Assembly (NCBI GenBank): GCA_009760855.2
Contig: WPIO01000030.1
Span: forward strand, 4,409,001-4,473,000
DNA from: Cristatella mucedo
Lineage: Eukaryota > Bryozoa > Phylactolaemata > Cristatellidae
Direction: 5' to 3'
DNA: 64,000 nucleotides
The position numbers and the translations under genes were made by a program. The stretch's first letter is position 1; each line of letters begins with the position of its first letter. Positions 1,438 to 59,126 of the stretch are shown piece by piece. The notes beneath the pieces are model-generated. The model worked only from the letters and a program-made list of their open reading frames with translations, was not told where the DNA came from and did no database searches.

Positions 1438-59126
<57,689 letters not shown>

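Follow-up and report, generated by a model that had tools for sequence, protein, structure and literature searches.

The window, a stretch of 64,000 nucleotides from the bryozoan Cristatella mucedo, carries the greater part of a minus-strand gene which, judged by its sequence, is a DNAH3-like axonemal dynein heavy chain. We wrote a splice-aware aligner and aligned the protein of another bryozoan, Watersipora subatra, to 114 kb of the same contig (the window and its flanks). Residues 2-3939 of 3939 align across 66 exons and 65 introns, and 45 of the exons (4 to 48) fall inside the window. The joined frame has 3,943 codons (an 11,829-nt coding sequence), with no stop and no frameshift step, and is followed by TAG; 2,762 of the 3,908 codons matched to Watersipora are identical. 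As there is no start codon at the first residue of the model and the Lingula protein is longer (4,243 residues), the 66-exon model probably lacks some 5' exons. All 65 acceptors are AG, while the donors comprise 62 GT, two GC (at 51986 and 21889) and one TT, the only one of the 65 that is neither GT nor GC.

The dynein introns also hold same-strand open frames resembling LINE-type reverse transcriptases, recognised by eye (28658-29983, 49275-50642 and 20323-21132, minus strand). Some 200 bases of (GA)n repeat (8293-8497) lie in intron 40, near exon 40, and (AT)n and (CT)n arrays occur elsewhere in the window. The window gave no match in an Rfam search and none in the E. coli collection.

Homologues were collected with a rough concatenation of open frames as the query, and the best 120 of 2,956 matches were examined. 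The best among those listed were dynein axonemal heavy chain 3-like proteins, the first being that of Watersipora subatra. The DNAH3-like chains of Watersipora (P0001) and Lingula anatina (P0002) are the same protein end to end, with 70.2% (by BLAST) and 68.8% identity, respectively. In a FastTree phylogeny of 29 sequences and 3,880 columns, the window gene is sister to Watersipora (support 1.0), then to Lingula, within a DNAH3-like clade; a paralogue on contig C442 of the same genome sits in the other DNAH3 clade. Both clades hold cnidarian, mollusc, hemichordate and vertebrate members, and the tree suggests that this genome carries two DNAH3 genes, which split before cnidarians and bilaterians parted. 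Part of the paralogous region (C442:2875000-2880000) reads N, masked or gap, and its model is without some exons. A Pfam search with the 382 residues of exons 21-25 of the window gene returned AAA_6 (215.7 bits), Dynein_AAA_lid (34.6) and AAA_5 (22.7, cut-off 22). No transcript of the same species was seen among the best 120 of 2,719 fragment-length proteins, with identities up to 78%, or among the best 120 of 2,956 long ones, with identities up to 79%.

The TT donor belongs to intron 23 and lies within the region encoding AAA2. Exon 22 (27152..27451, minus strand, as are all features that follow; 300 nt, phase 0 to 0) carries the loop GDPIGGKTT, which we take to be the Walker A of AAA2, and in the splice-aware alignment 70 of its 100 residues are identical to Watersipora. 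Exon 23 (26745..27064; 320 nt, phase 0 to 2) encodes the second half of AAA2 and has 98 of 106 residues identical. The GT-AG intron between them (intron 22, 27065..27151) is skipped by the PDB alignment; it is 87 nt long, a multiple of three, and free of in-frame stops, so that one open frame (27451-26741) spans exon 22, intron 22 and exon 23, and retention of the intron would add 29 residues to AAA2. Intron 21 (27452-27538) is likewise 87 nt long.

Exon 23 ends at 26745 with the tail ..CCA GCT ACA GTC AGC AG, and the bases directly past it are TTAAGTGATACC. Direct reading of the window gives cagcagttaagtgata for 26750..26735. The first intron base, at 26744, is T (A on the plus strand), and the donor is CAG/TTAAGT (intron part 26739..26744; the slash marks the splice boundary), a site read directly and placed here by the splice-aware alignment. 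Exon 24 (24860..24974; 115 nt, phase 2 to 0) opens with A TGT GGC ATG, preceded by tgttttag, and its first bases with the AG of exon 23 give R-C-G-M, the two exons together encoding Ala-Thr-Val-Ser-Arg-Cys-Gly-Met. Intron 23 (24975..26744; 1,770 nt, phase 2), as placed by the splice-aware alignment, has TT at its 5' end and AG at its 3' end, at the boundary that the protein requires. The boundary is the same in the alignment to the Watersipora orthologue and in a local test with four orthologues, and Val-Ser-Arg stands at the junction in 115 of 116 readable homologues and Ile-Ser-Arg in the other one (best 120 of 2,956 matches, four of which were unreadable by pattern). A first-pass annotation of this DNA had reported the same exon end, the TT and the near-perfect look of the donor, and all three are borne out by direct reading and splice-aware alignment. 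The exon that it numbered 20 is exon 23 in our model, and its 44 other exons agree with the 45 found within the window.

The AAA_5 match ends at the exon 23/24 junction. A truncation at this point would fall where the second AAA module ends, ahead of AAA3 to AAA6, which come after AAA2 in the dynein motor.

We looked for canonical ways of obtaining the same protein. Retention of intron 23 was rejected, since it gives Ser and then the in-frame TAA at 26741..26743, exactly as the first-pass annotation had predicted for read-through. A shift to the cryptic, frame-shifted GT at intron +5 (TAA/GTGATA, 26739..26740), a weak site with a weight-matrix score of -1.7 against a canonical median of 3.5, was rejected because the same TAA stays in frame. 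Skipping exon 23 alone removes 320 nt and breaks the frame; skipping exons 23 and 24 (435 nt) keeps it, but at the cost of 145 residues of AAA2. Exon 23 itself offers 11 GT or GC dinucleotides of suitable phase, none of them good: the best GT scores -1.9 and costs 91 residues, and the best GC scores 1.1 and costs 20, against the same median. Another in-frame donor within the exon was rejected on these low scores and lost residues. A duplicate exon or a second gene copy as the source of the donor was also rejected, as a DNA search of the species' own genome returned a single match at 100%, its remaining hits being fragments with 73-83% identity located elsewhere. None of the canonical readings tested preserves the protein.

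The nearest canonical solution would be a micro-exon: exon 23 would end at ACA/GTCAGC (26752), an 8-nt exon would follow at 25438-25431 (ACAGCAAG), and then exon 24. This path was chosen with all four orthologues tested once sites other than GT or GC were almost entirely forbidden, and a paralogue on contig C88 has a phase-0 intron at exactly the Thr/Val position of the micro-exon. However, the product would read Thr-Ser-Arg at the junction, a residue combination present in none of the 116 readable homologues described above, and the path scores 15.6 below the TT path in the alignment. The result is also at chance level, with 10 of 150 shuffled introns matching or beating it. An exact 8-nt micro-exon is absent from intron 23, and the sole exact solution, a GCAG exon of 4 nt that relies on GC donors, has equivalents in 936 of 1,000 shuffles. 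We consider this route very improbable indeed.

To place the TT donor among its peers, donors were scored at seven flexible positions (all except +1 and +2) in the window gene and its two paralogues, three related dynein genes. They contain 174 introns, one of which was dropped for Ns, and the remaining 173 comprise 163 GT-AG, six GC-AG, one TT-AG and three others. The TT donor matches the consensus at all seven positions (CAG/..AAGT). None of the 163 canonical donors of the three genes reaches 7/7, and seven reach 6/7. By weight matrix, 161 of the 163 lie below the TT donor and two equal it, A and C counting alike at -3. A random mutation or error among the donors of these genes would strike one of such strength in about 1% of cases. 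Such a context is easier to reconcile with a donor that works by compensation than with one struck at random, where the strength expected of a working donor is an assumption and the comparison set is three related genes.

The GC donors offer a parallel within the same set, as three of six match at 6/7 versus seven of the 163 GT donors (Fisher p 0.0028), although two of the six GC calls resemble alignment slips and one of the two in the window gene, AAG/GCAATA, matches at just 4/7. Of the 108 junctions scored in the two paralogues, all but three are GT-AG or GC-AG, and the three (two GT-GC and one CG-GA) look by eye like alignment slips. According to an excerpt of a study on human GC donors, these have weaker, not stronger, overall scores, with the +2 mismatch included (PMC7242645), which argues against a simple reading of our GC comparison.

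By predicted pairing with U1, the picture is different. The duplex energy of the TT site is -6.2 kcal/mol versus a canonical median of -7.1; among the 163 canonical sites, 31% pair more weakly and 69% at least equally well. In consensus match the site stands out; in predicted pairing energy it is ordinary. We propose that U1 would pair with every position of CAG/xTAAGT but +1, and that this full complementarity, presumably shared by U6, could let the spliceosome use the site despite the T at +1. Splicing, which we infer together with its route, would then yield the normal Arg-Cys-Gly-Met junction.

The genome holds 24 matches to U1 genes, 19 of them above the cut-off. Among the 20 of 24 copies read, eight start with ATACTTACCTG and one (L042) has no recognisable core. 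An A at U1 position 8 (C8 to A), which pairs with U at +1, was found in none of these 20 copies. A dedicated matching U1 variant was rejected on this basis, and the task would consequently fall to ordinary U1, mismatched at +1. A U12-type intron was rejected as well: U12-type donors have the consensus ATATCCTT or GTATCCTT, and the donor here is neither. Changes at +1 usually abolish splicing, and the G at +1 acts in the second splicing step too; this second role is our main ground for doubting that the TT site is spliced.

Some U1 copies are altered in other ways. One above the Rfam cut-off (L036, C441:977745-977908, minus strand) has the 5' end TTACTTGCCTG, in which the A7-to-G change would pair with a C at +2, as in GC donors. 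The U1-like copies L037, L044, L045, L048 (C652) and L047 have altered 5' ends (e.g., CTTTCAACCTG and CTTTTAACCTG), for which the pairing partners would be GTT-type donors. Those on contig C652 adjoin a tandem array of identical U1 genes with a spacing of about 2.3 kb, and at least some of the altered copies may be pseudogenes.

An old pseudogene was ruled out, in agreement with the first-pass annotation: the frame of 3,943 codons has no stop and no frameshift step, 64 of 65 donors are GT or GC and all acceptors are AG. A second near-identical copy was not found in the DNA search of the own genome, and a gene otherwise so intact is therefore not an old relic. A recent loss is another matter. 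With 531 nonsense-equivalent and 256 other splice-dinucleotide sites and zero further lesions, the neutral divergence, if the gene were dead, would be at most about 0.15-0.38% per site (95%, by the indel rate assumed), which leaves room for a segregating or very young null allele, a scenario that we hold to be possible but rather unlikely.

Under such a loss, segregating or lately fixed, the donor would have lost its +1 G and the assembly would carry such a copy, with the transcripts keeping the intron, skipping the exon or switching to the +5 GT, and the motor cut inside AAA2. Coherently with this account, the site is one base off a perfect donor and the gene has no other lesion. The bound above is lower than the heterozygosity of 0.764% given for one bryozoan, Flustra, in an excerpt of its genome report (PMC13326412), and so lies within the age of ordinary polymorphism. 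The anciently diverged second DNAH3 gene on C442 implies that the loss may be tolerated. Conversely, a random hit would be expected on an ordinary donor, and this one is matched by none of the 163 at 7/7 and by two in weight; moreover, the own-genome DNA search did not reveal another allele in the assembly. On balance, we regard a recent loss-of-function allele as a minority explanation.

One wrong base at 26744, introduced in sequencing or assembly, with a canonical true donor, would have the merit that one base explains everything. Single errors do occur in such assemblies, as the Flustra assembly has a QV of 38.6 with Hi-C k-mers and 60.7 with HiFi k-mers (PMC13326412, in the same excerpt). 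Nevertheless, the 11,829-nt coding sequence here is free of stops and frameshifts, and an error striking one of the donors with the best context is as unlikely as a random mutation there. We judge this explanation improbable.

Among non-canonical human donors, TT is reportedly second to GC (Erkelenz et al. 2018). Introns of this general kind are rare and at times constitutive. Minor non-canonical (non-GT/GC/AT) introns amount to 0.08% in human after filtering (PMC13149111), and minor non-canonical combinations to 0.577% of annotated animal introns, annotation errors included (PMC7072748). The excerpts of one survey describe 24% of 184 U2/U12-like non-canonical sites as constitutive and report that a TT-AG junction in human ETV1 is spliced constitutively (Parada et al. 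2014, PMC4176328); those of another, on human splice-dinucleotide polymorphisms, give one TT-AG case (PMC2882926). As presented there, ETV1 resembles the dynein gene in its TT 5' end, AG 3' end and intact gene, and differs in gene and phylum and in that its splicing was shown by RNA, the dynein intron being read from genomic DNA.

Two further systems are comparable in part. U2-type GC-AG introns, about 1% of animal introns in the text seen of PMC7072748, show that a change at +2 is tolerated. They share with the dynein intron one changed invariant donor base and strong flanks (the three of six GC donors at 6/7), and differ in that their change, a common one, is at +2 and not at +1. The GA-AG introns of Eurytemora affinis and Oikopleura dioica, as described in part of the same article (PMC7072748), likewise have a non-canonical donor in an otherwise consensus context. 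In these species, minor non-canonical sites make up about 10% of all splice sites and a U1 C8-to-U variant is possible, whereas here one intron in the gene is concerned and none of the 20 U1 copies read matches.

The two modelled paralogues are silent on the ancestral donor, since neither shares the position of intron 23: the C442 paralogue has no intron at this place, and in the C88 paralogue a phase-0 intron sits 8 nt farther upstream. The first-pass annotation had spoken of a G-to-T change. The TT is indeed one base off a perfect donor, but a change from G is not shown by paralogues without the intron position. The same annotation had listed four possibilities and chosen none; the comparison of donor contexts raises the one that it placed last, an unusual non-canonical splice.

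We put roughly even weight on intron 23 being a functional, still-spliced, rare U2-type TT-AG intron. Our preference for TT-AG splicing is based on the intact gene, the strong donor context, the failure of canonical readings to do better and the ETV1 precedent, as far as the excerpt describes it. With somewhat less confidence, short of an even chance, we suggest that in this lineage a constitutive TT-AG intron is maintained at one set position of an axonemal motor gene, served by the ordinary spliceosome, with the other donor positions a perfect match to U1. The probability left beyond TT-AG splicing, a null allele and a base error goes to other routes.

Either way, a splice predictor restricted to GT and GC donors would split the dynein gene in two. 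If the intron is not spliced, the window would hold a recently knocked-out allele of one member of an ancient pair of DNAH3 genes, and would show that even a donor of strong appearance fails to make up for the change at +1. If it is spliced, it would be a natural test of how far a perfect context offsets the loss of the +1 G, a loss that clinical geneticists usually treat as a null mutation. Finally, if the constitutive reading is true, this gene would contain a natural, obligatory donor with a base other than G at +1 in an invertebrate.
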